DNA of 64,000 bases from Phytophthora colocasiae (Eukaryota > Oomycota > Peronosporomycetes > Peronosporales > Peronosporaceae): assembly GCA_018806915.1 (NCBI GenBank), contig JAGKQI010000098.1, positions 3,844,001 through 3,908,000 on the forward strand. The letters run 5' to 3'. This document shows positions 24,641-62,627 of this stretch, one piece after another (positions within the stretch are counted from its first letter, which is position 1; every line of letters begins with the position of its first letter). The position numbers and the translations under genes are program-made. The notes beneath the pieces are model-generated. The model did no database searches. It was not told where the DNA came from and worked only from the letters and a program-made list of their open reading frames with translations.

Positions 24641-24735
24641 AACAACTGCATGTCTAGGTAGGTTTTATGTAGCCAACAAAACTAATGAACCCTTTTTAAA
24701 TTCATTTATGTTGCCCCTACCAACATTATCAACGT

Positions 24736-27175
24736 TCAGCTTCTGTCGATCGACACAAGCTGCGATAGCATCTTGGACAAACCGTATGACGGCTTGTCTT
24801 CGCTGGACAAGTCTAGCGCACCCGAGCTGACTCCTATCAGCTTGTCGCCCTTGTCAGCAGCAGGCCCTACCTGCTCGCTGTCATCTCTCATGTCTGTGCC
24901 CGGCACAGACATCGCGCGCTCGTTCCTGATAGAACGAGACGTCGCACGCGTCACCGCAGCTGATAGTGTGCTGTTATCAGTTGCATTCTGCGGTTGTTCG
25001 GACGCAACCGTAGATCCTCCCCCACTTAAGGAGGAAGCTACCCCGCCGAGCATGCTCGGCAATCCTGGATGCCTTATGGCGTTCACGTAGAACGGTGTAT
25101 GCCCTGTCGAGGCATGCACCGAGTTGTTGATGGCAAACTCTGCCATCGGCAAGCACTCGCTCCAATGCGGGAACGAGTGAGCGTAGCTCTTCAGCGTGTC
25201 ACCCAGTACGCGGTTGACACGTTCGGTTTGTCCGTCCGTCTGCGGATGATCCGCAGTCGACATTGATAATTGTGAACCAAGAAGTGTAAACACTTCTTGC
25301 CAGAACCGCGCTGTGAAGCGTAGATCACGGTCCGACACAATGTCGAGCGGCATGCCATGGTGTTTGAACACCATGTCAACAAACAGTCGCGCAGTCTGCG
25401 CGGCTGTAACAGTAGCCGGGACGGCAGCAAGGTGGACCATCTTGCTGAATCGGTCCACAAAGACAACGATGCCTGTCCTCCGCTTGCTGTCAGGCGGAAG
25501 ACCGAAGACAAAGTCCATGGACATGGACTGCCAACACTCCGACGGAGTCGGTAGTGATTGAAGAGGAGCCTGCGAGAACCGCGCAGGCTTTATGCGTCGA
25601 CAAACTTCGCAAGCACGTACGTACTTGCGCACCCACTTGTACTGGTGGTGCCAGTAGAAGTCACGCGTGAGAAGAGTGTATGTCTTCTCACGACCCGGAT
25701 GCCCTGCCGTGGGGGCATCGTGATACTCGAACATGATCCTCAACCGGAGGTCATGATCATTCGGAACGACAATGCGATCCGCATTGTCGTCTACTGCACT
25801 GTACAACAGTAGGCCTTCGTGTACACGATAGCGGTGTGCACGAGCTCGAAGATGAGGGGTTAGCTTCCGACGTGCCACGCCGGAAGGTGCTGCGAGGAAC
25901 TCCAGCAGCCCCTTCGCGTCTGCATCCCTTGCATACGCGTTCTTCACGTCGTCAATCAACGTTGACGACGGCACACTTGTCCTCACGACGCCAACGCTGT
26001 TGGCGTCGACCGTCTCCGCATAGTCAGGTCGACGCGATAACGCGTCGGCCACTACATTGAGTCTTCCGGGTTTGTACTCCACCCGGAAGTTGAACTCCGC
26101 GAAGAAGGACAACCATCTCGCCATACGTTGCGAGATGTGCGGCGACTTAATCGCCGTACGCAATGATGCGTGGTCTGTGTAGACCACGAACGGTCTACTC
26201 CCAAGTAGATACACTCGGAATTTTGCGAGTGCATACTTCATGGCAAGGAGTTCCTTGTCATATACGGGGTAGTTACGTTCAGTTGGCTTCAGCTGACGCG
26301 ATTGGTAGTAGACCACACTATCACGCCCTTCGTGATCGTGCATTAATGTGCATCCGATTGCAAAGTCGGATGCATCACACACTACGTGGAATGGACGATC
26401 TTGGTCCGCCACGGCCAAGATCGGCGCTTCAGTCAAGCCCTGCTTGACTGCACCGAATGCCTCCTCGCACTCGGTCGTCCATATCCACTCAGCTTCTTTC
26501 TTAAGAAGCTGCGACAACGGGCGAATCTTGCCCGCGTAGTTCTCCACGTACTTGCACAAGTACGTGGCAAGCCCAAGGAACTGCCTCAGTTCCTTCACAT
26601 GGGATGGCGTGGGCCATTCATTGATCACTCTGACCTTCTCTGGGTCAGGGCGCACGCCGTCTTTCCCCACGAGACACCCCAGCACGGATATCTCGCTCGA
26701 CCCGAAGATACACTTGTTCAGGTTCGCATAGAGCTTATGTTTCCTCATAAGCTCTAGCAGCTTCCGGAGATGCCTTGTGCATCTCAATGTCCGTCTTCCC
26801 GTTCACAGCCCGGCTGTGGACGAACACGTCGTCGAAGTAGCTCGGTGCGAAGTCGCGCACCGAGCGTAATAGATGCGTCACGCATCTATTGTACGTCGCA
26901 GGGGCGTTCTTAAGCCCCTGTGGCATAACGAGCCACTCCCAAAGCATACCGCGTGAAGTGCTTACCAGTGTGAGAGGGATATTCCTCTCACGCATGAGGA
27001 TCTTCGCACTGAGGGAGTCATCACCCTCAGTGATCCCATCGACGACGAGCTGCTTCAGCTCTTCGGCCTCGCGACCCACTCTCTCGACAGCCAAGAGAAT
27101 GCAAATTTGTTCGATGCGTCCATCGTACAAGTCCCGCGCGAAGCTCTTCCAACTCATCGTTGGAAGTGCGGTCAA
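24736..27175 (-). pseudogene. A1 pol remnant (RT-RNase H-integrase)
   Basis: Order on the minus strand: RT with SYFDDVFVHS near 26840; a one-base frame change after TDIEMH (about 26780, shared with A2); thumb and RNase H (VVCDASDFAIGCTLM, YTDHASLRTAI); integrase HHCC (HDAPTAGHPGREK, CEVCRRIKPA), and DDE core (MDFVFGLP, SDRDLRF, DGQTERVNRV). Compared with A2, the RT N-terminus is deleted: the text joins GDDSL to LMRERNIPL. A one-base deletion near 24810 shifts the last part, and the chromodomain is lost. The catalytic parts of integrase remain readable. Confidence 0.85.
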
Positions 27176-27953: not shown

Positions 27954-29465
27954 TGTGGCGAAGTGGGTGAACACTTTTCCCGCCCAGGTGCGTATAGCGT
28001 GTCTTCCGGAAAATAAGTCCGACTGGAAAGATGTCCGGTCGGACTAACGAAAGTCAGAACCTCCAACCGGGATCCAAATGGGTATCCGGAAAGAGGGTTG
28101 GCGTGTGACCTTGTGACTACCCTCGTAGGTGTCGTTTGTCTTCAAACGCGAGGAGTTCCACCTGGATGAGTTACTTCCAAAAGCTTGACTGGATCCAGAT
28201 GTAGAGTGCTAATGCACTTCCAAATGTAGTGGTTGAGTCTGAATGCAGGTGAGAGACTATTAGCAAAGCCTTCCAACAACAGATAACCAATATACAAGAG
28301 AGTTAAATGCAAATATACAGCCGCTTCTTATTCTTTCCGGCCCTTGAGCGGTGGGCACTCCAAATGCCAGTACGACGTTGGACACTCCAACCGGGACACT
28401 GGCACAGTCCCGGGGTCCTTTAGCGCACCACTTCTGGCAAGTCCACTTGGACTCCCAGAAGACAATTATCCAAATGTACCAGGAATACTATAAGCACTCC
28501 AAAATACACACACACAAATACAGTCCAATCACACAGCAGTCAATCAATCAATTTCAGGGGTGACTACTAATAACCTCCTAAAACGCAGTTGTAATGAAAT
28601 GTACAAACCAAACGACCGTTTGGAATGTCCAACTGGAATATGAAATGGGAGGGGTCACGCCCGGGAATCGCCGCCCGGATCACCTTCCCAACTTGGTCTT
28701 AACCTGGCGGAGATTCACGCGGCGGTGACGATAGTCGACGCGGCCTGACGCTTGTTCGCTGACTCCGAGCCCTCGACTTCGAGGCTGGTCGGCAGTGCTC
28801 ACAGTGGTGGCTTATGGGAAACCTCCCGCTCTTCCACTTGCGCCCTTGGTGGCAAATTGAACTCTCTTTAATATATAACTATCCGTTGTAAAGCTAAACA
28901 TGCAAAATAGACTTGGTTTCACTATAGGTAGAGGCGTGCTTATCCGGAGGCGACCTGACACATCCGAAGAACACCGAAGAACATGGCCGAATTCCAGCTG
29001 TGCCGAACAGATCATGGTCGGTCGTCTTGGTCGGTCGGAAAACACTTGGGTCTAGTATGGTCGGATCTTCAACGGCCGATCGTGGGTACAAATCAGGGCT
29101 AGTCCGGTTGGACTCTGGGTACAAATCTGGACTGGTCCGGTTGGACCTATTCAATCAAAACAGCCATCTTCCACTTGGACATCCAGAAGTAACTCCAATA
29201 TCTCGAAATCAGGTAACTGTCAACTGGGCAGAAGGCGGCAGTCCAGGAAATCACTTGACTTGAGTATGTACGTCCAACCGGACGTATACCACTTGGAGTC
29301 CCAACTGGAGATCTTGGACTGACTTCGCCTGGGCTCTCCGGAATCCACATTTATTTCGTCCATTCAATCCTCCTTGGCTCGCAGCGTCCCAATATAGTAC
29401 TTTCAGAGCCAATCAGAGCGTAGCTGGGGTATTTACTCCGTAAAAACTGGAGCCACATCTTCACA
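27954..29465 (-). repeat. Family B 3' LTR
   Basis: 1512 bp, almost identical to 43164-44677 (small differences include a 2-base indel near 28594). Short ORFs inside are chance. In the minus (sense) direction it contains a TATATATTAAAG box followed by TTCAATTTGCC at about 28851-28885, a likely promoter and initiator. Confidence 0.95.
28851..28885 (-). promoter_or_regulatory. Putative core promoter in family B LTR
   Basis: On the sense (minus) strand, TATATATTAAAG precedes GTTCAATTTGCC. The TCAATTTG part resembles an oomycete initiator. A related CAAATTGAACTCT word is conserved in the family D LTR near 63463, which argues for function. Confidence 0.4.
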
Positions 29466-29480
29466 ACCGTCCCTCTCGTC
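29466..29480 (-). promoter_or_regulatory. Family B polypurine tract
   Basis: Minus strand GACGAGAGGGACGGT runs straight into the LTR start TGTGAAG. Confidence 0.55.
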
Positions 29481-29488
29481 ATGTGCTC

Positions 29489-29502
29489 TCATTGAGAAAT
29501 TT
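29489..29502 (+). promoter_or_regulatory. Initiator-like motif upstream of the family B antisense ORF
   Basis: TCATTGAGAAATTT on the plus strand resembles the oomycete initiator (TCATT...CAWTTT). It lies in the internal region just outside the LTR and about 330 bases before ATG 29822, the strand and place needed to transcribe the antisense ORF. Confidence 0.35.
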
Positions 29503-29821
29503 ACTCTCGAGGTGAAAGGACACGATGAGACGAAGTGGGGCGACATCATCTTGCAAAACTCCCAGTCAGTCTAAACCTTCAGGTCGGTTCGGTCGGAATG
29601 TTCAGTCCAAAACGGTCGATCAGTCCGGCGGGAGCTTAGTGTCCACGAAAGTTCAGTACAACAGAAGATCTCCTTTCTCAGCAAACTCCAACTCCGTTCT
29701 TCAACTGGCGGAGGTCGCTTCCTTTCTGCGCCCCGTCCCAAGTTACCCAATCAAGACTCAAATCAAATCCAAATGGCAGTTCGCCAATCATAACCCGATT
29801 TCCAAGCTCTTGAACGCATCG

Positions 29822-32602
29822 ATGGCGACCCCAAGCAGCGCCTCGGCGTCCGACGCACCTGCGACAGGCGCCTCGCCTTCACGCGCATCTTCCGATGCTC
29901 CTGCAGCGACTGGCGCCAACGACGACAGTGGTGGCGGCACGGAAGTGTCTGCCGGAGCGGCTCCCGGCGGTTCCACGGCTGAGGATGACTTCAGGGAGGA
30001 GGACGACGGCAGCGGCCACGTGTCGGAGACTCCTGCACCTCCTTTCCCAGACACGGCGAAGGTACCTGGCTCGCTCGTGACCATCAGAGAGGCCTCCAGC
30101 GTCGGATTGTTCAAGCGCAAGGCTGTGTCCACTCTCACGTTGGGGCCCGGTCATTACACTTTGGAGGACATGAGCTCCGACGAGCGCGTCCGTATCGCTG
30201 GAGTCCCATTGGCAGATCGCCACTTGGAGCCTGGTGTCTTCGTCCAAGATGGGTATGGTGGTCTGGAGGGCATGGTCCAGCTGGAGAGTCTGTCAACTGC
30301 AGAGAAGTCCGAGTTGTTCCAGTTCTTCGATGATAAAGTGAACTTGGACTATCGCGTGCTGGTGCCCCGAGGTCGTCCTCTGGATGGGGATGCCCTGGAA
30401 TTCTGAAATGAACAACCTGCTGGTCCGACGGGAATTTGCGTCTATCCTGACGCAGTTCGAACCCGAAGGTCTCGCGCGTCGCGTGTTCGGGACGGTCTCT
30501 CTCCTTCGTCGCGTCATCCAGAAGCTCTCCCGGGACCAGACACTGCTCGAAGATACAGACGCGGCGGTGACGGATGCACTGGCTGTCCAAGATTCCTTGG
30601 ACAACTTGAAACGTGGGTCTCAGCTGAAAATTCAAGCCCTGGAACGGCTTGTATCGATGTCGGCAGCCGAGAAGGAGGAACTCGTGCAGAACTTCCGAGC
30701 TGACACTTTACAGCTCATCCAAGAACACAAGCGCGACAAGCAAAGTCTCCAGCGTCAGGTTCGAGACCTGCAACAACAACTAGCCGCCGCCAAGTCTCGT
30801 CAATCCCTTAGTCCAGTTGGACTCATGAACTTTCTCGGTCACGGTGGAAATGGAAATTCTGAGCTCCAGTTGAACTGGGAGCGTCTCTTGGAACTTTTGA
30901 TTCACTTTCGCGATGGGGTCCCAGTGCCGTCGTCCTGGCGTACCATGATTACTGTGATGACACTCGGCACACGTTCCCGCCATTCACGCAACTTCCCCGT
31001 TCGGAAGACGGTGATGAATCCAAGGAGAGCGATCCTCCGGCCGGCGACGAGATCGACCTGACGAAGAATTCGTCCAAGTCTTCCGGTTCGTCGTCTTCCA
31101 AGAAGCGATCTAGACCTCCAGCCGGACCTTCAAGCTCCAAGCGCCGCAAGAAGTCTCGAAAGGCTCCAGAGGAGGTTCAAGAGCGACCCGAGGGGTGGAT
31201 TGCTCACTCTAACGAAGACTGTCTCTCTGACAAGTACCCGTTGTCTTGGACTGTGGAGAAGGCTCGGAAGTCTCTGGCAGATCACCCGGTTGCTTGGGAG
31301 GATCTCCGTTTGGACGTCCAGATGCTGATTCGCACGGGCGTCCCGTTTCCAACTGTGATCGAATGGCTGAACGATGATCGCTCGGCTCACTTTGGCTTCC
31401 AGTTGGATGTCCTCCTCTCGATGCTTGTCCGGATGATGTACTGGAACGCACTGGACGACGTCCACTGGACAAAGTACGTCCCTCGCCGCTACTTCAGTAT
31501 GGCCGATGCCATTCTGGCTAATCTCGTGGAGCAAGATGTTCAGCCGGAGTTCTGGGACCCAATGGTGGAAGGCGAGTCTGGAGTTGAAGAAGATCCCGAT
31601 CCTGAAGCTCTGGTCGAAGACAAGGATGACAAGTCCAAGGACGAGGACTTCCACCCGGACGACGACGGAAATGCCGAAGAAGAAGAAGAAGAGGAAGATA
31701 TCAAGACTCCTCCTCCACGTTCTGCACGCCGTCGTCTGAGCTCCAGCAGTACACCTGCCACGCCGAAATCATCCAAGAAGTCTCGTCGGACGAAGTCTGC
31801 CCGGACGGCTCTCGCTCGGAAGGACTACGAAGACCTTACCCAGTCGGAGAAAGAAGTGATCGAGAGCCCGGACGACGAGAACAAGTCGTGGCTGCACTAC
31901 GGAGCCCGGGTGAAGCGTGGGGACCCCATGTATGGGGTGTCGCTCCAGACGTTTGGATTCCCGGACTACGCACCCAACCGTTGGGACATCAAGATCTTGA
32001 AGTCCCGTTCGACAACCAAGTTCTCAGAGATCCAGCAGCTCATGGCGGACGCACCTTGGAGTGAGATGTTCTCCAACCGGACCCAAACGTTCTTCTTTCA
32101 CAAGCGCGATGACCTCTCGGATGACACGGTGGAAGCTTTGGGTCGGTGGATCAAGTTCGTCTCACGGAATGTCCGGTCGTTCTGGTACGCTGGTCACTGG
32201 TTGACATTGGATGGTTCGGCCGATGCTCCCGCTCTCGTACGTCAGATGCAGAATGATCGGTCGAATCATCAAGCGTCCTTCCGGAAGCGCGTTCTCGCAC
32301 TCCAAACGGAGCTGGATCCCGACATCCCGGACTCACTTTGGATGGATCCTGGCATCTGGGCGTACCCGCACAAGCTGTGCCACTGGATTCTCATGGATCC
32401 AAAGCACATCAACCCGGACACTTCGGCGCCGTATACTGTCCAAGAGCAGTTGAAGATCTTGGACAAGCGTGAACCTGGACGAGCCCAATGGAGCCATTCC
32501 AAGTCGGACAAGGAGCGCATTGCGCACCTCCCACCAGACGTTCGTGCCAAGTTGATTCCGGCCGGACAACGCGTGAAGTTCTCTGACCTGTGGGCACTAT
32601 GA
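29822..32602 (+). pseudogene. Antisense ORF of Gypsy family B (two frame breaks)
   Basis: A protein of about 920 residues runs opposite to gag-pol, between the chromodomain and the 3' LTR. An Ala/Ser/Asp-rich N-terminus leads to a GPGHYTLEDMSSDERVRIAG region. One base near 30400 shifts the frame into EMNNLLVRREFASIL and a coiled coil (about 30590-30800). A second shift between about 30930 and 31000 leads to basic NLS-like clusters KKRSRPPAG and KRRKKSRK (31100-31160), a conserved-looking Trp/Arg-rich block, an acidic run (31570-31720) and an aromatic C-terminal region ending at TGA 32600-32602. No enzyme motif was recognised. Composition and length are not those of a random reverse frame. The breaks may be recent, since the LTRs are young. 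The 296 bases to the pol end hold nothing obvious. Confidence 0.65.
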
Positions 32603-32898
32603 AAGTCCAAGCGAGTGTTTTCCACCTGGATGCCTTCATAGCCTTACATATTTCATACGTAGTGACCCCACAATAATCATCCAGAATATACTCACCTTCA
32701 TTTCCATCACTGTTCCATCTCGTCATAGCTCGCCATCTCGTCTCCAATTTTCACCGTTCGAAAACTCCAATCTCTAACATGTCCACAGTCACTCGAACAC
32801 TCCAAAAGGTACAATTAAAATCAAATCAATGTCCGTCGTAACAGTTCCAATAGTCACACCACCCGGACGTCCAACATGCCATAAGACTTGTTGGACGT

Positions 32899-35800
32899 CT
32901 AAGCCCGGGGATGATCGTCCCCTGCCTGCATCGCTTGGAATCTCGCCCGCGCTCTTGCTCCTTGATTGAACTCATAGAGCAGGGCACCGCAGCTGAGTTG
33001 CGACACAGGTAGCCATTCTGGTTCGTCGTAACCTTTCCACTTGACCTGATACTCTCGGACTCTTTTGGAAGTTCGAGTCCGCTTGGACCATCGGAGATCC
33101 AAGATCTTTTCGACCTCATACTCGTTGTTTCCGACATCCGGTTCCCAACTGTCTTCGGGAAGTAAGGCAGCGTCGAAATCATCGTCATCGTCCGGTTGGA
33201 CTTCCACGGTTGGACGTTTCGGAAAGATGGCTCGTGGCTTCAGTCGACTAATGTGGACCCAAGGGTTGACACGATAACCCGTGTCCTCAACCTTGAGCTT
33301 CACTCGGAAGTCATCGTGCACCTCTTCAATCCGGAAAGGTCCATGCCACATGTGAGCCAATTTTCGACTAAGTCCCGTTTGAACCTTCGGAATGTACAGC
33401 CAGACTGAATCTCCCTTTTCGAACCCGGACTTCAACCGGTCGGACAGTTCCTTCCACTTTTGCGTTTGGACCTCCGACCGGCGCCTCTTGGCCTTCTTTT
33501 GGAGATCTTCAGCGAACGCAACAGCGTAACTGTAGTCACGTTGCACACTACGTCTCCACTCATAGGCTGTGCGCTCCGGAAGGCTATTGGCCTTTGGACC
33601 CAACATTGCTAAAATCGTACTCCGGGCGTCCCAGCCGTGCACCAAGTAAAAGGGAGTCTCCAACCGGGTGCATCGAACGAGGTGTTCAAAGCAAACATCA
33701 ACCGTTCAACATGGTCGTCCCAGTCGGACTGATCCGCTTCCATGATGTAACCTCGGATACTTCGGACGACTGTTTGGACTGACCGTTCTTGTTGACCGTT
33801 CGCCTGAGGGCGATATCCCAAAGTAGCCCGTTGGAGACTTCCGAGTTGATTTCGGAAATGTTCGAACACCGCACTCATGAACCTTGGATCTTGGTCATGT
33901 CGGATCATCGAACTGGCACCAAACTTTTGGAAGACCACTTGCTCGTAAACTTCAGCAACATCTTGGGCAGTCGTTGAACTCATTGGTTTGCACATGACAT
34001 ATCCGGAGAACATATCTTGGAACAATAATAAGAACGTATTCCCACGAGCCGACTTCGGAAGATGAGTGACGAAATCCATCGACACCACTTGGAATGGATA
34101 TGCCGGTTCGATGTTTCCAGGCGACGGTCCTCCATTTGGAGGCCGTCCCTTTCCACTGGCACAATCCACACACTCCTTCACATGCCGTTCAACATCCGCA
34201 TACATTCCAGGCCAGTAGAACTCCAAGAGTAACTTTTCGTGAGTCCGACGGATACCTTGGTGACCACCTTGGAAATCCTCATGGGCATAATGTAGCATAT
34301 CCGACCGGAGTGAATTTGGAACAACCAACCTCAAATCACCCAGAAAATCGCGTGGACGCTTCTGGGTGACAGTAGTCATCCGGTACAGCACATCTCGACT
34401 GTCCAACGTGAACAGGTCTGCGACCTTGGCAATCTTTCGGAGTCTCCGGGGGGAGAACCGTTGGAACTCTCCTTTCAGGAATGACTTCAGCTCAGACAAG
34501 TACTCGTCAGCGTCTTGGTGGACCTTGATCCTCCGCCATCGCTCTGCCTGGAACTCCAGTGGTCCCATTGGAGGTCCATCTGGACGTCCAGGCGGTTCAT
34601 CATCATTCTGAGCTATCGCAGCCATGACTCGAGCGGCGAACGTCAGGGGGGCAGATTCTGATCCAGTGAGATTTTCTCCAACCGGAGGATTGTCATCTGA
34701 ACTTCCACGAACTTGGATGTCGTCCGCTGGCCCCTGGGCACTCATGCGCACAGAACTTGAAGGCTGATCATCTGGCGGTTCATCTTTCAGAGTATGACCA
34801 TCCGGAGGTTCAACTGGTCCGTTGTCTTTTGGAGTGATCTTGACTTCCGGAACCTCAGGTTTCATCAACTTTTCCGGAATCTTGGATACGTACTCCAAAT
34901 GACGTAGGTCACTTTCATCCTCGACATCCCATGACGCTCCCAAGAGTAAAGTCTTGGAAGTGAGATAGTCGGCGGCCTGGTTGTAGTCTCGCTTGAGATG
35001 CACCAGTCGGACCCTCTGGAACTTTGCCTTCAAAACCTCCGCCTCCGCAAGGTGTTTTTGGAGGTGCGGTTGATTGCAGTTGATCAGACCCTGAACTTGT
35101 TGAATCACGATCCGAGAATCTCCAACGATAACTAACTCTTGGACCTTCCGATCGGACGCCATCAGCATACCTTTCAGAAGGCCGTGGTACTCGGCATCGT
35201 TCACGGTGACATCTTCCAAGATGAAACCTCGAGCCTCGAGGATAGTCCAACCGGGTAACTTCCAAAGGATGCATCCACAACTGCCCTTCCGGTTGGAGGT
35301 CTTGGCAGCTCCGTCGAAACTCAGAACGACGCCTTCGTAGTCGGACTCCAACATCTCGATACTCATCACTGGTGGTTTCCGGATGCGTCCCTTCAGTGGA
35401 ATCAACGACTCCGAGATTTCGTCCAAGTGTTCACGAGGAGTGATTCCGGCGCCCATAATGGCCGCTAAACCATCTTCATCCCGTTGGACCTTCCGAATGT
35501 CCAAATTCCAGTGGGACAGTGTGAGTCCCCAGGGTACACACCGTCCATCTTGGAATTGATAACCCACTTCAAGACGGAGTACCGTGTGTACACGATCAAC
35601 TTGGACTGTTCAACCAGCGTCCGGAAAACTTGGAGTACTCTCAGTATTGCGATGACCTCCTTTTCCGCAATGTGATATCGCAGTTCAGAGTCGTTCAGAA
35701 CGCGACCGGTATATCTGACCGGATGGATTACACCATCATACTCCTGGCCCAAGACAGCGCAAGCCGCCCAAGCATTTGCATGCGGGATGATCACGAACGG

Positions 35801-37762
35801 TCGAGTCCGGTCGGGGTGTCGAAGCAGTGGAGTCGAAACGATCTTGTGCTTCAGAAGTCCGAACGCTTCCTTGGCCTGATCCAAGTTCCGGCCGGACTTG
35901 ATCTGCTCATCAGTTAACTCATACAACACTGCGGCGACCACCGGAAAATCTTCGATGAACTTGTGGTAATAGTTCAAACTTCCAAGGAACGATTGGACCC
36001 CTTTCAGAGTGTTCGGAAATGGTAGGTCCAAAACGCCCTTCGCGATTTTTGGAGTCGCTCTGATACCCTCCGCACTGATCTCGTGGGACAAGTACGGGAT
36101 GGTCAGTTTTCCAAACTCGCTCTTCGGAAGGCTCACCGAGATGTTCCAATATCGGAGTCGAAACAGAAGTGCGTTCAAGTCTTCGCATAGCTGATCCCAT
36201 GTTGGAGCACCATGAGCAATGTCGTCGATATACGAACTTCGACCTAACACCGGGCTCATCTGTGACGGAGCAGGGATGTTCCGTTGGAAGACTGTCATGG
36301 TGTCCGACAGGTTCGGCACTTGAACCCCAACGGGTTGATCGTCCAAAAGTGAATGCTCCGGTCGGTCCAATCCCAGAAATTCCATAACCTCCGGTTGAAC
36401 TTCAGCTTCTTCCTCTGGCGGAGTCGGACAAAACCCCACAGACAATTGTTGATAACCGCCTGGTAGACTAGTGGAGCATTCTTCAGTCCAAATGGCATTC
36501 TCACCCATTGGAAGTGTCCAAACGGACATACGAAAGCCGAGATCAGTTTCGCCCTCTCGGACATCCGGATGGCCCAGAATCCACTGGCCATGTCAAGACT
36601 CATAAACCACATCGCACTTTCGAATCCAATCAGCAAATCGTCGATCAGAGGTAGCGGGTAGTTCGACAGTAAAATGAACCCATTCACGACCCGGTAGTCA
36701 ATGCACATCCGGATGTCGATCCCATTCTTCTTCAGAACAATGACGATCGGAGAGGCCCATGGGCTTTCGGAATGTTCAATCAGACCTGTCTCCAGAAGCT
36801 TCTTGAGCAACTCGTACACCTTGATCGCCAAGTGAGGAGCTATCGATCGGGGTCGTTGAGCGACAGGTTTTGCCGACCCGACGTCCAAGTCCTCTGGCCG
36901 GAGCAGGAGCCGCATTACCGTCTCCCAAGAAAATACTCCGATGGCGCTTCAGAATGTCCCGAAGTTTACGTTCCTCTTCTGGAGTAGTTTTTCCCGGTTC
37001 ACCTACATCGGCCGATTCGATTTCACACTTTGGAGTCAGCTCATGTATTTCCGGAAGCATAACCAGCTGCTCACGCAACTGGGACAACATGTCGCTTCCC
37101 TCATGTACATATACAGCTGGCTCCAAGTTCAATTCTTCGGCATTCACGTGCAGGCATCGGACGAACTTGGTCTCTAGCTTCCGGATGGCTCGATTTACCA
37201 CGTCCAACTTGGACTCAGCCTCCGACTGGACATCTTCAGATTCGAGTTCTTCAACCAACGTTTCTTCCGGAAAGCATTCTCCGTCAGCATCACTAATCGC
37301 GTCGAAAAATTCATCATCATCTAAATCTCCAGTTGGATCACCACCTGATCTTTCCAAAATCGTCAATTTTGTCGATCGTTCCACGGGTACACCTTTATCA
37401 TCCATGCTAATCACATCGAAAAAATCCTCATCATCCGAACTTCCAACAGGCTCATCGTTGGTAGGACAATCATTACTGCCTCCATCAGACACATCATCGG
37501 GGGTGACTCCAGCATCTTCTTGCTGTTCGGTAACAGAATCTGCAACTTCTGGATGTAACACCTTCTGAACTTCCGACGGTGGAATCTGCAGTTGGACCAT
37601 ATGAACCCTGGTACTCCCACGCGGCGACCGTGTCAACAACTTCTTCGGCCATGGGTATTTCGGTCTTTGGACCGACGGCGGCGCAGACTTGGACATCATT
37701 TGGAGGTACTTCTCCTGTCGGAGCTGCTCCTGTCTGGAATTCGTATTCTCGTAAATGAGCAC
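32899..37762 (-). pseudogene. Family B pol: RT, two RNase H domains, integrase, chromodomain (frameshifted)
   Basis: Five overlapping frames read in order. 37762-36776 is an acidic linker with a pre-RT region. 36915-36295 is RT fingers and palm (CIDYRVVNG, MPFGLKNAP). 36529-35465 has RT YIDDIAHG, thumb and a retroviral-type RNase H remnant (YHIAEKEVIAIL). 35567-33609 has an additional archaeal-type RNase H (SFDGAAKTSN, NDAEYHGLL, VGDSRIV) and then integrase HHCC and core (SMDFVTHLP, IRHDQDPRF, NGQQERS). 33663-32899 ends with a chromodomain (YEVEKILDLRW, YQVKWKGYDEPEWLP). Four frame changes separate them. Dual RNase H is known from plant Tat and some oomycete Gypsy elements. The chromodomain would direct integration to specific chromatin. 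Confidence 0.9.
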
Positions 37763-37804
37763 TTCCCACTCACGGTACCTCCGAAGTCCGGGCCGAACAA
37801 ATCT

Positions 37805-43066: not shown

Positions 43067-43133
43067 GATCAGAAAGTTAGTTAGTACTCAAACCCCGAAA
43101 CTAATCAAAATATAAAAATAACTCGGTGATATC

Positions 43134-48050: not shown

Positions 48051-48065
48051 CCATCCCCCCGTTAA
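48051..48065 (-). promoter_or_regulatory. Family A polypurine tract (A2)
   Basis: Minus strand TTAACGGGGGGATGG immediately before the LTR, identical to 583-597. Confidence 0.65.
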
Positions 48066-48120: not shown

Positions 48121-48130
48121 TCATTTCGCA
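48121..48130 (+). promoter_or_regulatory. Initiator-like motif at the family A antisense ORF
   Basis: TCATTTCGCA directly precedes ATG 48131 and is conserved in A0. It resembles the oomycete initiator core, but the leader would be only a few bases, so it may just be start context. Confidence 0.25.
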
Positions 48131-49710: not shown

Positions 49711-52700
49711 AAGGTCGGGTGGAGCCTCATGCTGGACGGTATGTCCAGCCGGTACGCGTTACCATGCCGTTCAAGTACTTTGAACGGTCCAATGAATCTT
49801 GGAGCAAGCTTGCTTGCTCCAAAGTCAGACACTGCATGTTTAGGCAGGTTTTGTGTAGCTAACAAAACTAATGAACCCACTTTGAATTCATTTATGTTGC
49901 CCCTACCAACATTATCAGCGTTCAGCTTCTGTCGATCGACAGAAGCTGCGATAGCATCCTGGACAAACCGTATGACGGCTTGTCTTCGCTGGACAAAGTC
50001 TAGCGCACCCGAGCTGAATCCTTTCAGCTTGTCGCCCTTGTCAGCAGCAGGCCCTGCCTGCTCGCTATCATCTCTCATGTCTGTGCCCGGCACAGACATC
50101 GCGCGCTCGTTCCTGATAGAACGAGACGTCGCACGCGTCACCGCAGCTGATAGTGTGCTGTTATCAGTTGCATTCTGCGGTTGTTCGGACGCAACCGTAG
50201 ATCCTCCCCCACTTAAGGAGGAAGCTACCCCGCCGAGCATGCTCGGCAATCCTGGATGCCTTATGGCGTTCACGTAGAACGGTGTATGCCCTGTCGAGGC
50301 ATGCACCGAGTTGTTGATGGCAAACTCTGCCATCGGCAAGCACTCGCTCCAATGCGGGAACGAGTGAGCGTAGCTCTTCAGCGTGTCACCCAGTACGCGG
50401 TTGACACGTTCGGTTTGTCCGTCCGTCTGCGGATGATCCGCAGTCGACATTGATAATTGTGAACCAAGAAGTGTAAACACTTCTTGCCAGAACCGCGCTG
50501 TGAAGCGTAGATCACGGTCCGACACAATGTCGAGCGGCATGCCATGGTGTTTGAACACCATGTCAACAAACAGTTGCGCAGTCTGCGCGGCTGTAACAGT
50601 AGCCGGGACGGCAGCAAGGTGGACCATCTTGCTGAATCGGTCCACAAAGACAACGATGCCTGTCCTCCGCTTGCTGTCAGGCGGAAGACCGAAGACAAAG
50701 TCCATGGACATGGACTGCCAACACTCCGACGGAGTCGGTAGTGATTGAAGAGGAGCCTGCGAAAACTGCGCAGGCTTCACGCGTTGACAAACCTCGCAAG
50801 CACGTACGTACTTGCGCACCCACTTGTACTGGTGGTGCCAGTAGAAGTCACGCGTGAGAAGAGTGTACGTCTTCTCACGACCCGGATGCCCTGCCGTGGG
50901 GGCATCGTGATACTCGAACATGATCCTCAACCGGAGGTCATGATCATACGGAACGATAATGTGATCCGCATTGTCGTCTACTGCACTGTACAACAGTAGG
51001 CCTTCGTGTACACGATAGCGGTGTACACGAGCTTGAAGATGAGGGGTTAGCTTCCGATGTGCCACGCCGGAAGGTGCTGCGAGGAACTCCAGCAGCCCCT
51101 TCGCGTCTGCATCCCTTGCATACGCGTTCTTCACGTCGTCAATCAACGTTGACGACGGCACACTTGTCCTCACGACGCCAACAGCGTTGGCGTCGACCGT
51201 CTCCGCATAGTCAGGTCGACGCGATAACGCGTCGGCCACTACATTGAGTCTTCCGGGTTTGTACTCTACCCGGAAGTTGTACTCCGCGAAGAAGGACAAC
51301 CATCTCGCCATACGTTGCGAGATGTGCGGCGACTTAATCGCCGTACGCAAAGATGCGTGGTCTGTGTAGACCACGAACGGTCTACTCCCAAGTAGATACA
51401 CTCGGAACTTTGCGAGTGCATACTTCATGGCAAGGAGCTCCTTGTCATGTACGGGATAGTTACGCTCAGCTGGCTTCGGCTGACGCGATTGATAGTAGAC
51501 TACACGATCACGCCCTTCGTGATCGTGTTGCATCAATGCACATCCGATTGCAAAGTCGGATGCATCGCACACTACGTGGAATGGACGATCTTGGTCCGCC
51601 ACGGCCAAGATCGGCGCTTCAGTCAAGCCCTGCTTGACTGCACCGAATGCATCCTCGCACTCGGTCGTCCAAATCCACTCAGCTTCTTTCTTAAGAAGCT
51701 GTGACAACGGGCGAATCTTGCCCGCGTAGTTGTCCACGTACTTGCACAAGTACGTGGCAAGCCCAAGGAACTGCCTCAGTTCCTTCACATTGGATGGCGT
51801 GGGCCATTCATTGATCACTCTGACCTTCTCTGGGTCAGGGCGCACGCCGTCTTTCCCCATGAGACACCCCAGCACGGGTATCTCGCTCGCCCCGAAGATA
51901 CACTTGTTCAGGTTCGCATAGAGCTTATGTTTCCTCATAAGCTCTAGCAGCTTCCGGAGATGCCTTGTGCATCTCAATGTCCGTCTTCCCGTTCACAGCC
52001 CGGCTGTGGACGAACACGTCGTCGAAGTAGCTCGGTGCGAAGTCGCGCGCCGAGCGCAATAGATGTGTCATGCATCTATTGAACGTCGCAGGGGCGTTCT
52101 TAAGCCCCTGTGGCATGACGAGCCACTCCCAAAGCATACCGCTTGGAGTGCTTACCGCTGTGAGAGGGATGTCCCTCTCACGCATGAGGATTTGGTAGAA
52201 TCCATCACGCAGATCTAGAGCACTGAAGATAGTGCTCAAGGCCATCGAATCGATGATAACATCTTTTCGCGGTATCGGCGTCTGCGCCGGTATCGTCGCA
52301 TCGTTCAGCTTGTTATACGCATGAACGATGCGCCAGCCGCTCTGTGGTTTGTTCACACAGAACGTTGGGGCGCTGTGCGGGGACTTTTATTCCCGCACTT
52401 GACCTGCAAGGCGACGACTTTCAAAGAAGTCGTCGATCGCTTGAACTTGTTCACGCGGCAGTGGCCACTGCCGTGTAACACAGTACTTCGTGCCCGGCAC
52501 GAGATCAATCTCGTGCTGTACGCCCTTGTCCTTCGGAAGCTCCGAAGGAATCTCGTCCGGGAGTACATCCTTGTACTCCCGCAGAACTTCGTAGTAGGGA
52601 CTCGACCTCAACGAGTCCCAACTCTGCTCTTCGAAGCGCTGCTTCTTAGTCTTCGCAATGAGGGAGTCATCACCCTCAGTGGTCCCATCGACGACGAGCT

Positions 52701-55921: not shown

Positions 55922-57414
55922 TGTGGTGGAGCGGATCTGGCCAAAATCTGGTTGAGGCCGATCGCGATCGCCACTTGCGCCCAGACACCGACTAACGGAG
56001 GGGGTCCCCCGATGATCCGTGATCTTGCTGCGTGTAGTGTTCACCTTGTGTACCCGTCGGTAGGCGGGTTACGCTCTTCCAGGTGACTTCTGAAGATGTC
56101 TTGGGACGAGAAGAATGTCTTGGGTGACGTAGGGGTGTGAGGTAGCGTGGGAATACTTCACTCTACCTCGGAGGGGTTGATCCGGGCCACAGGCGAGTTC
56201 TCGAGCCTTGATCCGGTCGCCTGGTCTTCGATCCAGGTCTTCCAAGGGTCCAACGTTGGGGATCTGATCCCTTCCTTTACGATGCTTGCCGCTTCCTATA
56301 GCGGGTGTCTTGATGAGTTGAGAGTCGACGAGATCGTCAGGCCAAGCAGCCAATTCCTGCCGATCCGTAGTTCGCACGTAAAGGATAGATCACTAGATAG
56401 GGTAAAACTGGCCAATGTATTATCCAGAATAAACCTCTATGCTAGATCTCTTCTCCTTACCTTCTTGATGCTGGTGGGCCAATGTAATTCCCAGTTCCAG
56501 TCTTGGATGAAGGCACTTGTGAGGTCCAGAGCAAATTCGATTCTGTTTATGGTTATTCCTATGTCTACAAGTCCCATCCTCATCTGCTATCCTACGATCA
56601 CCTGACATCCGGCTACACAGCTGCTCTTCCGATCTTCGATCTCGATCTCACCTAACCCTTGACCGCGATCTCGATCACCGATCTCGGTCATCGATCTCGA
56701 TCATCGATCTCGGTCATCGATCTCGGTCATCGATCTCGATCTCGATTGGCAGTCTTGATCAGCTGCTCTGAACAGTAGTCTTGACCGTAGCCTTGATCGG
56801 CCAGCTTGAACAATGATCCTGATCGGCAATCTTCTCACTTGATCTCGTATCTCCGCGTCACCGATATTTAAGATCGCGATCTCCCTGTACTTGAGCATCG
56901 CTCCCCCGCGCGACTGATGCTGCCGCCATCGTTCGAACCAGAAATCACCTCTTGGGATGACCTCTGCATGACTGCTTCCTTGGCTCTTCGAATCTCCTTC
57001 GGCTTAACACGGTGTGTAGCGTCACTGATCTTGTGCAATTCACACTGATCGTTGGATATCGGCCCCCTTCTTCGACGGCATCTCACGATCAGGTCGTTGT
57101 CGATCCACAGCAGATCGTGCCTGTCCTGATCTGCCGCTGCTTTGGTCTCCTTCTCTCCGGTGCTGAGCCACTACGTGAGACCTTACGGCGGGGCCCTCTG
57201 ATCGCTTAGTCTCACTCGACCACGACGCCATCCATCATCCACTTGCGGAGAGATCAAGACGATTACCGATCCGGGTCCATTCTTCAGCCGTCGTTCGCGC
57301 AATCTGGGGTCATCAACCGGTATCTTGCTACGCCAGAGGCCCCTGTCGCTTGATCCGACTCTCTCTGGGCCTGACGTTGCCTTTTCTCTGATTACTTATT
57401 CGCGCTTCACCACA
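55922..57414 (-). repeat. Family C 3' LTR (C3)
   Basis: 1493 bp with the same TGTGGTG...CACCACA ends as C1 and C2. It is longer because the 56640-57200 part differs, including a run of GATCTCGGTCATC-like units near 56680-56750. Confidence 0.85.
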
Positions 57415-57430
57415 TCCGCCCCCAGCCTGC
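57415..57430 (-). promoter_or_regulatory. Family C polypurine tract
   Basis: Minus strand GCAGGCTGGGGGCGGA abuts the LTR start TGTGGTG, confirming that this LTR is the 3' one of a minus-strand element. Confidence 0.55.
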
Positions 57431-57460: not shown

Positions 57461-57476
57461 TCATTCTCCAATCTTC
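57461..57476 (+). promoter_or_regulatory. Oomycete initiator-like motif for the family C antisense gene
   Basis: TCATTCTCCAATCTTC on the plus strand closely follows the oomycete initiator pattern (TCATTY..CAWTTT) and lies 80 bases before ATG 57541, outside the LTR. Confidence 0.45.
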
Positions 57477-57540: not shown

Positions 57541-60177
57541 ATGAGTCAACAAGGAAGTGATCCGGGGAGCGATTATCTGCCCACACCTCCCGACTCCCCA
57601 AGATCTCCTGGCTGTCCGCCATCTCCCCACTCCGACATCTCGCGACGTTCGTCGGGTCCGGCTCCAGACCACGCGCGCCCGCTCTCACCCGATGAGGCTG
57701 GGCCGATGCCGGGCAGTCCAGGGCGGGATCGCCTGGTGCGCGAACGTGATCAGCTAAGTCGTGAAGCCATGGAACTTCGGGCGCATGTCGACGCCATGGA
57801 GCGGTTCCGGGCGGACCAGCAGAACGAGATCGCGCGTCTGGAGCGCGAGATCGCTGATCTCGCGGAGGAAGCCTCTGATCTCGATGGATTGTGCGTGCAG
57901 GTTCACCAGCTCCGATCGGAACGCGACGAGTTCGCGCAACGTCTCAACTCTGCCCAGGCAGACCTAGATCGAGCTACAGAGGACCGGGATCGTTTGACTG
58001 ACGAGATGGAACAAGCCACTAACGAGATCCAAGATCTCCAGGCGGAAGCCCGGATCCATGCTTGCGATCTGGCTGAGGCGAAGCAAGACTCCGTCACCGC
58101 CAAGGCCAGCTACAACCGGATCTCGGCTGATCTTGCACATCTCCAACTGGATTCCAGCCCCACGCCTTCGACCGGGGCTCCCACCCGATTGGCCCTGGCT
58201 GAGCGAGATCGAGCCTTGGCGGACTTCGCCCGAGCGACCGCTTCCCTGACCAGCATCGTTGCCGAACGCGACCTGATCACCGATCAACTCGCCAACGCTA
58301 ACTCCGAACTGAACCGAGTCACTTCGGAGCGGGATCGCCTACTCGTGGAACGAGACCAAGCGTTTGCAGATCGCGACAGGGCACAGATGAATCTCGGCAC
58401 CGAGCGACAGCGATCCACTCGTCTAGGTACGCATATAGGCTAGATCCCCCTCCACCTGACCACGATCACTCATATTCTGTTTGTCGTAGAGGATGATCTG
58501 ATCGGTACCCATGCCGAAGTGCAGGAGTTAGAAGCGAGTCTTCAAGCATTGCAGGAGAACTACGATCAGGCGGAAGATAACGTATGGGCGACTACCAACG
58601 TCCTGACCGAAATGGTGTCTCGGCTCCGCGCCGCTCAAGATGAACGGGGGGTCAAACGCGCTCTCAGTCCGCCCCCATCTCCCGCTACATCGCCCCCGCA
58701 CAAGGCTTCGCGGACGGAGCCTCCCCCGACCGACCACGATGCGGCCACACCCGACGTTCCCGCTGGAGACCAACCTGGTGGCCAGGCCCAGGCGACCGAG
58801 CTCGAAGAAAAGCACGAGGAAGGCCCAGACCCCTTCGATCTGGGTCCCGAAGCCGTGATCCCGACTGGGCCGGATGCGGAGGAAGCCGATCGCACCCAGG
58901 CCACCTCGCAAGTGACCGTGGAAGCACCTCCCCCGAAGAAGGGTGGCTCGGATCGGTCCAAACGCAAGCCCGATCCGGAGCATGACGATGACGAAGAGGA
59001 TTCTGGCGCTGGATCCGACGACGCCCTTCGGGCTATGATACTCCGATCGCTGTCGTGGCACCGCCGGCATGGAAATCCTCCTCCGGCATCCGGTGATCAA
59101 GGGAGCCCCGCTCCTCAGACGCCTCCTCATCCGGCATCCGGTGATCAAGGGGGGTCTGCTCCTCAAACGCCCTCGGCTCAGCCGACACCTCCGGGGGGCG
59201 GTTCCCCTCAGACTCCGATCACCTCTCCTCAGGGATCCCCGAGGGGTAGTCCGGCTGGCGGGAGCCCTCCTGGTGGGGGATCTCCGGGTGGCGGCTCTCC
59301 CGGCGGCTCGCCGCGCCCCCGGCTGCACCCTCCTCTGTTCGCGATCCGCTCGTCCATTCCCGGATATGCGAACGTCCGGCAGTTCACGGCTGGTGATGTC
59401 TTCCCGTGGGATCCGATGTTCGTCGGAACTTTGGCAATCGTCGGTATGATCCTCTCCACACTGGCCAAGAGGTTGCTGCTACCCCCCGGATTCCTCTACC
59501 CAGCGAGATCTCCGGCTAACCGACCTCCCCAAGCTGGGGTCGGTTGGTTGGCCAACCTGATCACTGGGCCCAACGTGCGGGCCCTACTTGCTACCCGACC
59601 TTGGGAGGTGCTCCGCACCCGACCGGCCCCCCTCACCTTCGATCTCGGTCTACATCGTCGTGCTAGAACTCCGCTGGGGCAGATCGCGGATGCCTACGCC
59701 GCCTACGAGTCGGATCACCTGCAGGCCTACTGGGAATCAGCCCACTATCTCGAGATCACGAAGGCGATGTATGAAGCTGATCCTGATCTTCATCGGTATT
59801 ACCTCGAACGTCGGCAACGGCGTAGCCGCACCGGAGAACGTTGGCGGCTGCTATTGGGACGATTCCTGCCCATGATGCGTGCGATGTGGGCGGACATCGA
59901 TCTTCTGCTCGATCCCTACTTCCTGCACTTCCCCACTATCCGTGATCGGGTACACTGGTATCCCGGATCGGTCTCCCGAATGGCCAACCTGGCCCAGCCG
60001 ACTCTGAACCGACCGGAGCCCACCAATCTGATCTCTGCGTTGGCAGAATGCGATCAGGAGGACCTTTGGCGCAACCATTACCGCGATCGGCCGGTAGATC
60101 ACCCGTCTCGGCAGATCCCACGGCTCGAAAACAAGTTTAACCCTCCTGCTCCACCTACACCTCCTGGGACTCCCTGA
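57541..60177 (+). CDS. Antisense gene of Gypsy family C (857 aa, one intron)
   Basis: Two exons, 57541-58426 and 58490-60177, joined in frame across a 63-bp GT-AG intron. Residues 1-60 are Ser/Pro-rich. About 61-335 is one long coiled coil (RERDQLSREAMELRAHVDAM; then ELEASLQALQENYDQAED after the junction). Next come an SP-rich NLS-like stretch (VKRALSPPPSPATSPPHK), an acidic DDDEEDSG segment, a Gly/Pro-rich repeat near 555, and a C-terminal 270-residue region rich in Trp, Tyr and Arg that looks folded. The protein is intact. It is encoded against the direction of gag-pol, with its end 377 bases from the pol end. No family was recognised. The intron and intact frame argue for a real transcript on this strand. 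Confidence 0.8.
58427..58489 (+). other. Intron in the family C antisense gene
   Basis: Starts GTACGC and ends TTTGTCGTAG with a pyrimidine-rich tail. It contains an in-frame TAG at 58441-58443, so without splicing the protein ends there. Removal restores GAG GAT GAT and continues the coiled coil. Confidence 0.75.
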
Positions 60178-60553
60178 TCTCGCGATCTCGGCCAGTCCGG
60201 AGGTGATCAGCCGAACCTGGGGTCGATCAGCATGCCTACATGTTCTTCATCACGATCCGGTACCTCACCGCGCGATCCCGACTCCAGCTTAACCTCCGTT
60301 CAATCCCACGTAATTTTCCAACTTCCGAGATCGGCGTTCTTCTCCATACTCGCTCCACAGTTTCGATCCCCATTTAACATCTTCGAAATCTCCACACCTT
60401 CCATTCAATCACTCCAGTTTCACATGCATATACAAGAAAAATATAAAATCTCCACGAAAAAAATATAAAACCTCCACTTCCGACCCAGATAGACATCCAG
60501 ATCTGCATCCGCGATCTCGGCGTTGTGACCCGGTCACATCGCCCACTTCGCGT
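60178..60553. other. Gap between antisense gene and pol end
   Basis: A-rich in 60430-60475 with AATATAAAA words on the plus strand, possibly 3' processing signals for the antisense gene. No ORF of note. Confidence 0.35.
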
Positions 60554-62627
60554 CTACACCTCTTCGTGCGACTGCATCACGCTAAACCGATTTCGGTTAG
60601 CATGATCGCGTAGGAACGCGCTCAATATGGCTCCACAGTTAAGATCAGCTTCATCGACCCAAGTCGGCTCATCATAACCGACCCAGTGCACCAGGAATTC
60701 ACGATAGATCCGGCCGTAGCGAGTTCGTTTCCCACTTCGCATGTCCAAGATCCGTTCGACCTCGTACTCATCGGCATCCAGATCCGGGACCCAACTGTCC
60801 TCCGGAAGGAGGATCTCATCTAAATCGAGCCGATCTGCTTCATCCACCGTCAACTCGATCCGCGGTCGATCAGGAAAATTCCGTACCAGCTTTAGCTTAG
60901 AAACATGGACCACTGGGAAGATGCGGTAATTAGATCCCGCGATCTCCAGCTTCATCGTGAATTCATTGAGCTTCTCTGCAACACGGAACGGGCCGTGCCA
61001 AAGGTGAGCGAGTTTACGCGCATATCCTTCCTTCACACGATCTAGATACAGCCAAACTCGTGATCCAACTTCGATCTGATGCGGATCGACATCCTCATTG
61101 TGCCGATCGGCTCGATCTGCAATCGCCTCTCGTAGCCTAGCGTTGACCTGTTCTCGCGACTGCCGGTAGTATCTCTGAACCCGATATCTCCACCGTCTTG
61201 GATCGCGATCGTGGCGTCTGGTCGATCCGATCGGGATCGTTGCTTCCAACGTAGATCTCGAATCCCATCCGTGTACCAAATAGTGGGGGGGTATCTCCCC
61301 GAACCCGATCGTGAGCCGTGTTAATAGCGAACGTCAGTCTCTTCGCATATTCATCCCAGTCCTTCTGATCGAGATCTTGAACGTACATCTTGATCGCCCT
61401 AGTCGCCGTTTGCACCATCCGTTCTGCAGTCCCATTGGCTTGTGGCCGGTGGGCCATCGTCGCCCGCTGTCGCTGCCCCAGGATCCTATTGAACGATCTG
61501 AAGAAGTCGGACATGAAACCCGGTTCTCGATCGTGCCTGATCATCTCGTTAGCACCAAATCTGCGGAACACGCATTCTTCATAGGATTCTGCGACGGTCT
61601 GGGCTGATCGGGAGGAACTGGCCTTCGCGATCACATATCCCGTGAACAGATCTACCCAGATCAGTAGTTCGGTGTTGCCTTTGTTAGATCTGGGTAGGGA
61701 GGGTATGTGATCCATCGCTATGATCTGGAATGGGTATGTCGCTTGTAGATTCCCCGGCGACTCGCCCCGGATCGTGGGCCTCCCCTTTCCAGTCTCACAG
61801 TCTACACACTCGCCTACGTATCGCTGCACGCTCCGATATAATCCCCTCCAGTGGAAATGATCTCGGATCCGCTGATAAGTGCGTCCGATCCCCTGATGTC
61901 CCCCCTCCAGAGTCGTATGGTAGTGGTGGAGGACATCCTGCTGTAGCGTTTCTGGAACCACGAGCCTCATCAGGCGGTCGCGATCACCACTTGATCTCGG
62001 CCCTGGTGGGCAGTAAAACAGCAGATCCTGTTCATCTACCTCGTACTCGGAGGCGATCTTGGCGTAGGATCCAGATTCGGCTCGAGTAAGATCCGCGATC
62101 TGCCCAGCCAAGTACTTCTTTAGTCCGGCGATCCAGACTTCCTCGTCCTGGGCTCGCCAGATACGATCAACCCGCATCTCCCGGATCAGTTCCTCTCGCA
62201 GGGCAGCGGCACCAGGCCGCGCTCGGGCTGCACGCGTGGCTACTGCTGACACTTGCACAGTTCGATCTTCAACTCGAGGGATCAACACCTCATTGAGCCG
62301 ATTCAGGGTGATCAGATCACATCGATCTGCCTCATCGTGGACCTCGATCCCGCTTCCTCGCTGCAGCGCGGCACTCGCCAAGCTATCTGCGCTCCCATTC
62401 CAGTCTCTCTTCACATGGACAAGCTCATGATCTCCCCAATCCCGCAAGTGATCTAGCACCTTCTGTTTCAGTAACGTCAATCCTGGCGCCTTACAGTCGA
62501 TCTCGCCCCGGACTTGTCGGATCACTAGGTTGGAATCGCCGCAAACTACCAGACGACGGCGTTCCAACTGTGCGATCATACTGAGACCCAGCAAGAGTCC
62601 ACGGTATTCCGCTTCATTGACAGTAAG
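60554..62627 (-). pseudogene. Family C pol end: archaeal-type RNase H, integrase, chromodomain
   Basis: From 62627 the frame reads VNEAEYRGLLLG, VCGDSNLVIRQVRG and HVKRDWNGSADSLAS, the second half of an archaeal-type RNase H. Then come integrase HHCC (HYHTTLEGGHQGIGR, CVDCETGKGR), and core IAMDHIPSLP, IRHDREPGFM and NGTAERMV. At about 61285 a run of seven G shifts the frame; the continuing frame (61279-60554) has the integrase tail LWHGPFRVAEKL and a chromodomain (YEVERILDMRSG, FLVHWVGYDEPTWV). The upstream end is cut by the family D LTR. Confidence 0.85.

Follow-up and report, generated by a model that had tools for sequence, protein, structure and literature searches.

Some plant Tat elements contain antisense ORFs, and HTLV-1 carries at its 3' end the antisense gene HBZ, whose transcript from the 3' LTR is spliced and encodes a coiled-coil nuclear protein. 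In plant Ty3/Gypsy elements generally, extra ORFs (eORFs) of at least 250 codons were divided into four classes, one of which comprises reverse ORFs at the 3' side (eORF-3'R) (Neumann et al. 2019, PMC6317226). According to the same source, most OTA elements have eORFs, whose sequences are divergent and which are thought to stem from many sources; PF10536 (plant mobile domain) or PF04195 (Transposase_28) was reported for 57% of Ogre and 23% of Retand elements, plant Tat elements carry an archaeal-type RNase H, and it was questioned whether plant eORFs have any function (PMC6317226). In oomycetes, the Ty3/Gypsy group Chronos was described (Ustyantsev et al. 2017, PMC5348765), in the main text of which the terms "antisense" and "opposite strand" do not occur (term search). 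A limited literature search revealed no publication that describes an antisense gene for oomycete elements, which lends weak support to its being absent from print.

In this study, Gypsy elements of three families (A, B and C) were analysed within a 64,000-nt stretch of Phytophthora colocasiae DNA (hereafter the window; Table 1). We consider it probable (about 0.62, for the joint reading) that all three carry a genuine antisense accessory gene at the 3' end of the element, having the promoter and the nuclear role proposed below. A long opposite-strand ORF past the chromodomain end of pol had been claimed for each family in a preliminary description. The frame does lie near the 3' LTR in all three, but in family A it overlaps the pol linker and chromodomain by approximately 490 nt and is thus not located beyond the chromodomain.

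Table 1 Features of Gypsy families A, B and C in the window.
Feature	Position	Strand	Basis and remarks
Second A antisense gene, 5' part, cut by the window edge	2..496	-	self-BLAST; genome match C100:3842952-3844496
B element, Chronos-like Gypsy, 16.7 kb	27954..44677	-	self-BLAST, edges, Pfam; TSD GAAT
B LTRs	27954-29465 + 43164-44677	-	99.6% identical
B candidate INR+FPR-like promoter	29489..29504	+	14/16; chance 0.061
B antisense gene (probable start)	29525..32602	+	about 1,010-1,030 aa where open; this copy in three frame stretches
B pol: RT, Gypsy RNase H, archaeal-type RNase H (RVT_3), integrase, chromodomain	32899..36915	-	Pfam
B gag-protease ORF, 1753 aa	37805..43066	-	ORF listing and Pfam
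A LTR, ~465 bp, forming the 3' LTR of the next element on the right	47588..48052	-	LTR match with 5' ends in L052/L053
A candidate INR+FPR-like promoter, overlapping the ATG	48121..48136	+	14/16; chance 0.061
A antisense gene	48131..49710	+	515 aa in intact copies; window copy with a frameshift close to its ATG and a single in-frame stop
A pol C-terminal linker and chromodomain (the antisense gene overlaps this part)	49175..49663	-	Pfam PF00385, E 5.5e-13
A pol: RNase H, integrase, SH3	49656..51977	-	Pfam; no archaeal-type RNase H found
C 3' LTR	55922..57416	-	self-BLAST
C candidate INR+FPR-like promoter	57461..57476	+	15/16; chance 0.008
C antisense exon 1 (predicted)	57541..58426	+	Ser/Pro-rich start, long coiled-coil-like stretch
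C antisense intron, predicted, 63 nt	58427..58489	+	GT in 14/15, AG in 15/15 aligned copies
C antisense exon 2 (predicted)	58490..60177	+	shares a homologous C-terminal domain with the B protein
C pol C-terminal part: archaeal-type RNase H, integrase, chromodomain	60554..62594	-	Pfam

By domain make-up, families B and C fit the Chronos group. The dual RNase H, a Chronos trait, is present in B (RT_RNaseH, E 2.7e-18; RVT_3, E 2.2e-17; Pfam), and in C an RVT_3 match (E 3.4e-6, Pfam) was found in the part of pol lying in the window, outside which the Gypsy RNase H would be located. Both families resemble Chronos, as described (PMC5348765), in the archaeal-type RNase H, the integrase and the chromodomain that follows it at the C-terminal end of pol (PF00385 above the cut-off in both); they differ in the antisense gene, a further trait recalling plant elements. 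The genome holding B and C also has elicitins. In A pol, no RVT_3 match was obtained between RT_RNaseH and Integrase_H2C2 (Pfam), i.e. the archaeal-type RNase H typical of Chronos was not detected there, and the integrase region of A is 25–28% identical to those of B and C.

As in the plant eORF-3'R class, a reverse extra ORF with 250 or more codons is located 3' of pol (overlapping its end in A). Neither PF10536 nor PF04195 was found at E≤1 for the A, B and C exon 2 proteins, among the 25 of 47 matches listed for C exon 1, or at E≤0.5 in pieces of the loci L045 and L054. A further difference from the plant ORFs, the function of which was questioned (PMC6317226), lies in the codon selection demonstrated here.

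The copies present in the window are damaged or split, and the complete gene was seen in other copies of the same 92.5 Mb genome, which was the scope of the copy survey. Of 20 fetched A copies, 17 hold the frame as one uninterrupted ORF of 515 aa or more, and residues 1–515 are free of stops in 47 of the 62 match rows spanning them (among the best-scored 85 rows); the second A copy of the window has two in-frame stops over its whole length. In C, the first ORF has 300 aa in 9/11 copies and the second at least 521 aa in 4/11 (window copy counted in both cases). The window copy of the B gene is divided into stretches 29525-30400, 30399-30998 and 30956-32602. From the first ATG, four of the 13 fetched B copies are open to the fetched end (approximately 100 nt short of where the frame normally stops) and one more as far as a stop that comes slightly early, while from the second ATG (29822) five are open to the fetched end and two to a slightly early stop.

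Pooled dN/dS was 0.22–0.37 within families, and ratios of 0.11–0.44 were obtained between subfamilies, compared with 1.06–1.88 for the +1-frame controls (B and C exon 2). A synonymous excess versus the neutral null (P<0.0005) was found in both exons of C, in the part of A lying outside pol and in B starting from the second ATG. Such purifying selection is a criterion for a protein-coding gene and, judging by stops and substitution pattern, the conserved frame is the antisense one, both within and between families. Selection has kept the antisense gene working, so the gene genuinely belongs to the element, and the accessory gene postulated in the preliminary description is borne out in all three families. 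Among the signs against such a gene named there are random stops in other copies and dN/dS near 1. Neither was encountered, as full-length open antisense frames exist in other genome copies and the within-family ratios are those given above.

A frame open by chance or through composition (GC-rich DNA, mirror of the coding strand), yielding no protein, has several observations in its favour: about one third of the A frame mirrors pol, A copies hold a second overlapping open frame on the plus strand (~363 aa), and the mirror frame sharing the wobble base has a similarly low dN/dS (0.21–0.38). For B and C this was rejected on the basis of stops, which fill the other five frames, and of selection; the synonymous excess, the cross-family conservation and the +1-frame controls all argue against it. 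For A it was rejected because of the ~1,050 nt outside pol, where N/S is 0.45 of neutral. We thus assign it hardly any probability. Constraint on the A antisense frame equals that on A pol, but for the tail overlapping pol a clear constraint is lacking (antisense 0.76 vs pol 0.47 within the family, 0.42 vs 0.81 between subfamilies).

The B gene had been proposed to start at 29822, which is its second ATG. The start is probably 29525, a position now preferred, though not proven, because the start ATGAGACGAAG and, with third-base changes, the stretch L..(V/M)AS.L(R/H).VP are kept between families. The former is present in all seven B-type loci examined. Within B, the N-terminal extension shows no clear constraint, and polymorphism upstream of 29822 looks neutral, with N/S at 0.76 of the neutral value (0.98 among shared variants).

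The three antisense proteins had been described as dissimilar in sequence. This holds for A, for which profile comparison (A as a single sequence) revealed no relation to B or C, and the A gene may be independent of the B/C gene. The B and C proteins, by contrast, are homologous in their C-terminal domain, as judged from hhalign (probability 86–90%, E 2–5e-6, single comparison), so that two of the three genes are one; family C also matches the B relative L045 (tblastn, E 1e-8). Relatives of B at 40–47% protein identity retain the antisense gene and, in the two loci for which pol was also fetched (L045 and L047), it occupies the reverse position. Scans of virus contigs gave no relative of the A, B or C protein. 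Between B and L045 the antisense proteins are 41% identical, versus 87% for the integrase core and 84% for the chromodomain end, and such faster divergence would be expected if the protein faced host factors. Other pol stretches of this pair are 53–69% identical (L045 pol is frame-broken), hence the rate contrast between antisense gene and pol is not uniform. A host gene captured in each lineage, as a passenger selected for the sake of the host, would be expected to show reverse orientation and an intron, as seen or predicted here, and would agree with the many sources suggested for plant extra ORFs (PMC6317226). However, the B/C domain is common by descent and a gene of the B type is found in several families of elements, and we regard capture as quite improbable.

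The two C antisense ORFs (57541-58443 and 58519-60177) are best read as two exons around a predicted intron, the removal of which restores the reading frame and would give a protein of ~857 aa. Such an intron is not spliceable from the sense genomic RNA and would therefore survive retrotransposition. Oomycete INR+FPR core promoters consist of YCAYTYY and MWTTTNC separated by 2 nt, near the start codon and in gene-forward orientation (Roy et al. 2013, PMC3599244). Candidate blocks, scored as matches out of 16 to the published one, were found in all three families upstream of the antisense ATG, ~23–68 nt inside the internal region and thus within the element. The second A copy likewise has a block (at 493, minus strand), and all four B-related loci scored reached 14/16. 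In A, no more than ~8–10 nt remain as 5' leader after the block, and in B the match to the INR half is partial. These blocks resemble the known promoters in motifs, spacing, place near the start codon and orientation to the gene, and differ in that they lie within a retroelement, on its antisense strand. The host polymerase would transcribe the antisense gene from this core promoter of its own just inside the 3' LTR, and the C transcript is predicted to be spliced. The arrangement parallels HBZ as an antisense 3' gene with predicted splicing (in C) and a putative coiled-coil nuclear product; here, however, the promoter block is situated in the internal region and not in the LTR, and no bZIP family is among the Pfam matches listed (25 of 47 weak matches for C exon 1).

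Transcripts from the predicted promoters would be complementary to 1.5–3 kb of genomic RNA, and the antisense RNA itself might be what matters (as dsRNA for or against silencing, or in copy-number control), the protein being secondary. We find this very improbable, as RNA function leaves the codon-level selection unexplained, although both may act together.

Pfam searches with the antisense proteins gave no recognised domain, only weak sub-cut-off matches (mostly coiled coil). A sequence search against solved structures returned weak coiled-coil-like matches for B (best E 0.036) and none for A or C exon 2, and AlphaFold, run twice on B, reached mean pLDDT values of 36.5 and 38.2 and gave no usable structure. 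Of the plan proposed earlier for the proteins, tracts of acidic and of basic residues and coiled-coil-like stretches were recognised (NLS and coiled coil being sequence impressions). The product may be a nuclear protein that oligomerises by its coiled coil, bears acidic/Ser-Pro as well as basic tracts and is synthesised separately from the gag-pol precursor. Inside the nucleus it would assist the element, most probably through control of element transcription or silencing or as an escort of element DNA to chromatin; a role as nuclear regulator or coat, as suggested earlier, is likewise putative. Alternatively, the protein could be structural, a coat or assembly partner of the particle with an env- or capsid-like position. 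The gene sits where retroviral env does, coiled coils suit scaffolds, divergence between families is strong, and the position and selection measured here are in line with it. Yet the translations show no signal peptide or membrane span by eye, the sequence search did not link them to any solved coat or env protein, and the tracts are basic and NLS-like; a structural role is thus unlikely.

A reverse extra ORF that is a selected protein gene is common to several element families, far from plants, and it has a predicted promoter and, in C, a predicted intron of its own. We advance only tentatively, as a rather doubtful proposition, that two unrelated Gypsy lineages (Chronos-like B/C, and A lacking a detected archaeal-type RNase H) independently gained a separately promoted antisense gene for a nuclear coiled-coil protein. 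If this were true then, together with the plant reverse ORFs, the reverse 3' gene would be a repeated convergent invention for a shared problem, probably silencing escape or nuclear delivery, and retroelements would gain a gene whose control is separate from that of their genomic RNA. These are high-copy families with many intact copies, which opens transcripts, splicing and localisation to direct testing. Many copies, including those in the window, carry a broken antisense gene and, since the LTRs of the window B element are still 99.6% identical, the gene may be dispensable in cis.

Long ORFs opposite gag-pol near the 3' LTR, reported for Gypsy families A, B and C in the preliminary description, were found again in further copies from the P. 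colocasiae genome (92.5 Mb in 105 contigs searched; its oomycete nature is borne out independently by 62 elicitin (PF00964) matches vs 0 in 14 control genomes). Besides the window's own copies, 20 A copies (from 39 other rows listed) and 10 C copies (from 40 other rows), in both cases mostly the best-ranked, were fetched, together with all 13 other near-complete B copies listed. A single antisense ORF of at least 515 aa was present in 17 of the 20 A copies. The B gene was open through the fetched stretch in 4/13 copies from its first ATG (29525), and in 5/13 from the second (29822), with 1 and 2 more copies, respectively, stopping slightly early. In C, read as two exons around a predicted intron, the first ORF had 300 aa in 9 and the second reached 521 aa or more in 4 of the 11 copies (window copy included). 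The antisense frames were not riddled with random stops: residues 1-515 of A were stop-free in 47 of 62 full-span rows and the second C ORF in 24 of 25, counts biased to intact copies since they come from the best-scored genome matches only (85 and 94, respectively).

The antisense frames are under purifying selection. Within-family dN/dS (uncorrected proportions pooled over all pairs, which are not independent) was 0.365 for A (0.265 when the pol overlap is excluded), 0.342 for B, and 0.248 and 0.224 for the first and second ORFs of C, well apart from 1. On the same strand, the other two frames gave about 0.9-1.8, and the mirror frame, with which the wobble base is common, was likewise low, yet full of stops. 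Compared with a neutral null, in which the same base changes were placed at random, a synonymous excess (P<0.0005) was observed in both C exons, in the part of A that lies outside pol and in B from its second ATG onward; no such excess was detected in the A tail over pol or in the N-terminal extension of B (between its two ATGs). Within the A/pol overlap, dN/dS was 0.76 for the antisense frame vs 0.47 for pol within the family, and 0.42 vs 0.81 between subfamilies. Subfamily comparisons yielded 0.44 for the A and 0.11-0.24 for the C antisense genes, while B against three related loci of the same genome (L045, L054 and L056) gave 0.20-0.36, with dS saturated or nearly so. The +1-frame controls, which covered B and exon 2 of C, gave 1.06-1.88. 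The A antisense gene is as constrained as A pol (N/S relative to neutral 0.45 vs 0.56; 0.26 vs 0.24 for shared variants; pol values from the 16/21 copies covering that region), and the C antisense gene (0.31-0.42) is under less constraint than the C chromodomain region (0.20). A copies also hold a second + frame of ~363 aa, open within the 515-aa gene (in the window 286 aa, 48632-49492), with dN/dS of 1.7 outside pol.

Relatives of the B antisense gene (40-47% aa identity), some of them broken, were identified at L045, L046, L047, L054, L055 and L056, and further B-type relatives listed share 49-53% with L045. At L045 and L047, the loci for which pol was fetched too, the gene lies reversed beside sense pol. 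The antisense proteins of B and L045 are 41% identical, vs 87% for the integrase core and 84% for the chromodomain end; elsewhere in pol, identity varies between 53 and 93%, in part owing to the frame-broken pol of L045. A direct tblastn match (1e-8) connects the second C ORF with L045. The profiles of B and C, both shallow, could be aligned along ~100 columns of a C-terminal domain at a probability of 86-90% in hhalign (E 2-5e-6), so the B and C genes are related. The earlier statement that the proteins do not look alike thus fails for B and C, whose C-terminal domain is homologous, and holds for A, whose protein, searched as a single sequence, showed no detectable relation to either. A pol has no archaeal-type RNase H match, and its integrase region is 25-28% identical to those of B and C. 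At L047:97-5866, two B-related copies have their antisense-gene regions arranged as a large inverted repeat, with ~600 bases between.

Each antisense gene is preceded by a match to the oomycete core-promoter block, composed of INR (YCAYTYY), 2 nt and FPR (MWTTTNC) (PMC3599244).

Coordinates of promoter-like blocks and element parts in the window
Feature	Position	Direction	Remarks
INR+FPR match, A antisense gene	48121	antisense	14/16; 10 nt before ATG
INR+FPR match, B antisense gene	29489	antisense	14/16; 36 nt before ATG
INR+FPR match, C antisense gene	57461	antisense	15/16; 80 nt before ATG
Family B element, complete	27954-44677		LTRs 99.6% identical; GAAT target duplication
Family A LTR	about 47588-48052		set from 5' ends of two other copies
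Family C 3' LTR	55922-57416

In random 158-nt stretches a score of 14 was reached in 6.1% and 15 in 0.8%, which gives a joint chance of ~3 in 100,000, if independent; the test was not wholly blind, as it followed an initial scan with a provisional consensus. That scan (128 kb) returned 11 sites scoring at least 13, of which 3 lie at antisense gene starts (A, a window-edge A copy and C), 2 precede apparent host genes and 6 have no evident start. Each of the 4 B relatives examined for the block likewise reached 14/16. Strong blocks of this type at 12004 and 13984, just upstream of two apparent host-gene ATGs (read by eye), hint that this genome uses the motif to mark gene starts. Between the two C ORFs, GT was present in 14/15 and AG in 15/15 copies; the predicted intron has a length of 63 nt in 11 of these copies and of 62, 66, 66 and ~75 nt in the other four. 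The flanking exon ends are conserved, and in the window copy, as judged by eye, removing the intron brings the two ORFs back into one frame. Owing to its orientation, an antisense intron would not be recognised when the genomic RNA is spliced, and would therefore persist.

The antisense proteins contain Ser/Pro/acidic and basic tracts, with coiled-coil-like stretches in B and C exon 1 (weak Pfam matches, below cut-off); Pfam searches found no known domain and no usable fold was obtained. Judging from sequence features, our best guess is that the product may be a nuclear, oligomeric cofactor working in trans; the main rival is that it is a component of the particle.

Plant Tat elements have an archaeal-type RNase H and carry a reverse extra ORF; in both traits Chronos, a group of oomycete Ty3/Gypsy elements, would parallel them. 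For plant elements, PMC6317226 describes extra ORFs, one class being reverse and 3', and questions their function. B shows the domain features given for Chronos (PMC5348765), as does C as far as it lies within the window; a term search of that paper's main text returned no antisense gene, and none of this kind in oomycete elements was found in literature titles and abstract beginnings.

The A and C elements of the window are truncated or rearranged through nesting. The 5' part of an A element (46095-48052) continues directly into the A LTR, which doubles as the 3' LTR of the next A element, i.e. a shared-LTR tandem. C-like LTRs stand alone within family A sequence at 52945-54283, with a 4-bp duplication seen against an uninterrupted copy at 27301-27304, and at 44757-46094. 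A Copia-type element (15199-20862) has 217-220 bp LTRs that are 100% identical and one open 1719-aa ORF, and is thus a very recent insertion. At 8168-8425, a 127-nt unit is tandemly duplicated (98%) inside an apparent broken ABC-transporter gene (named by eye).
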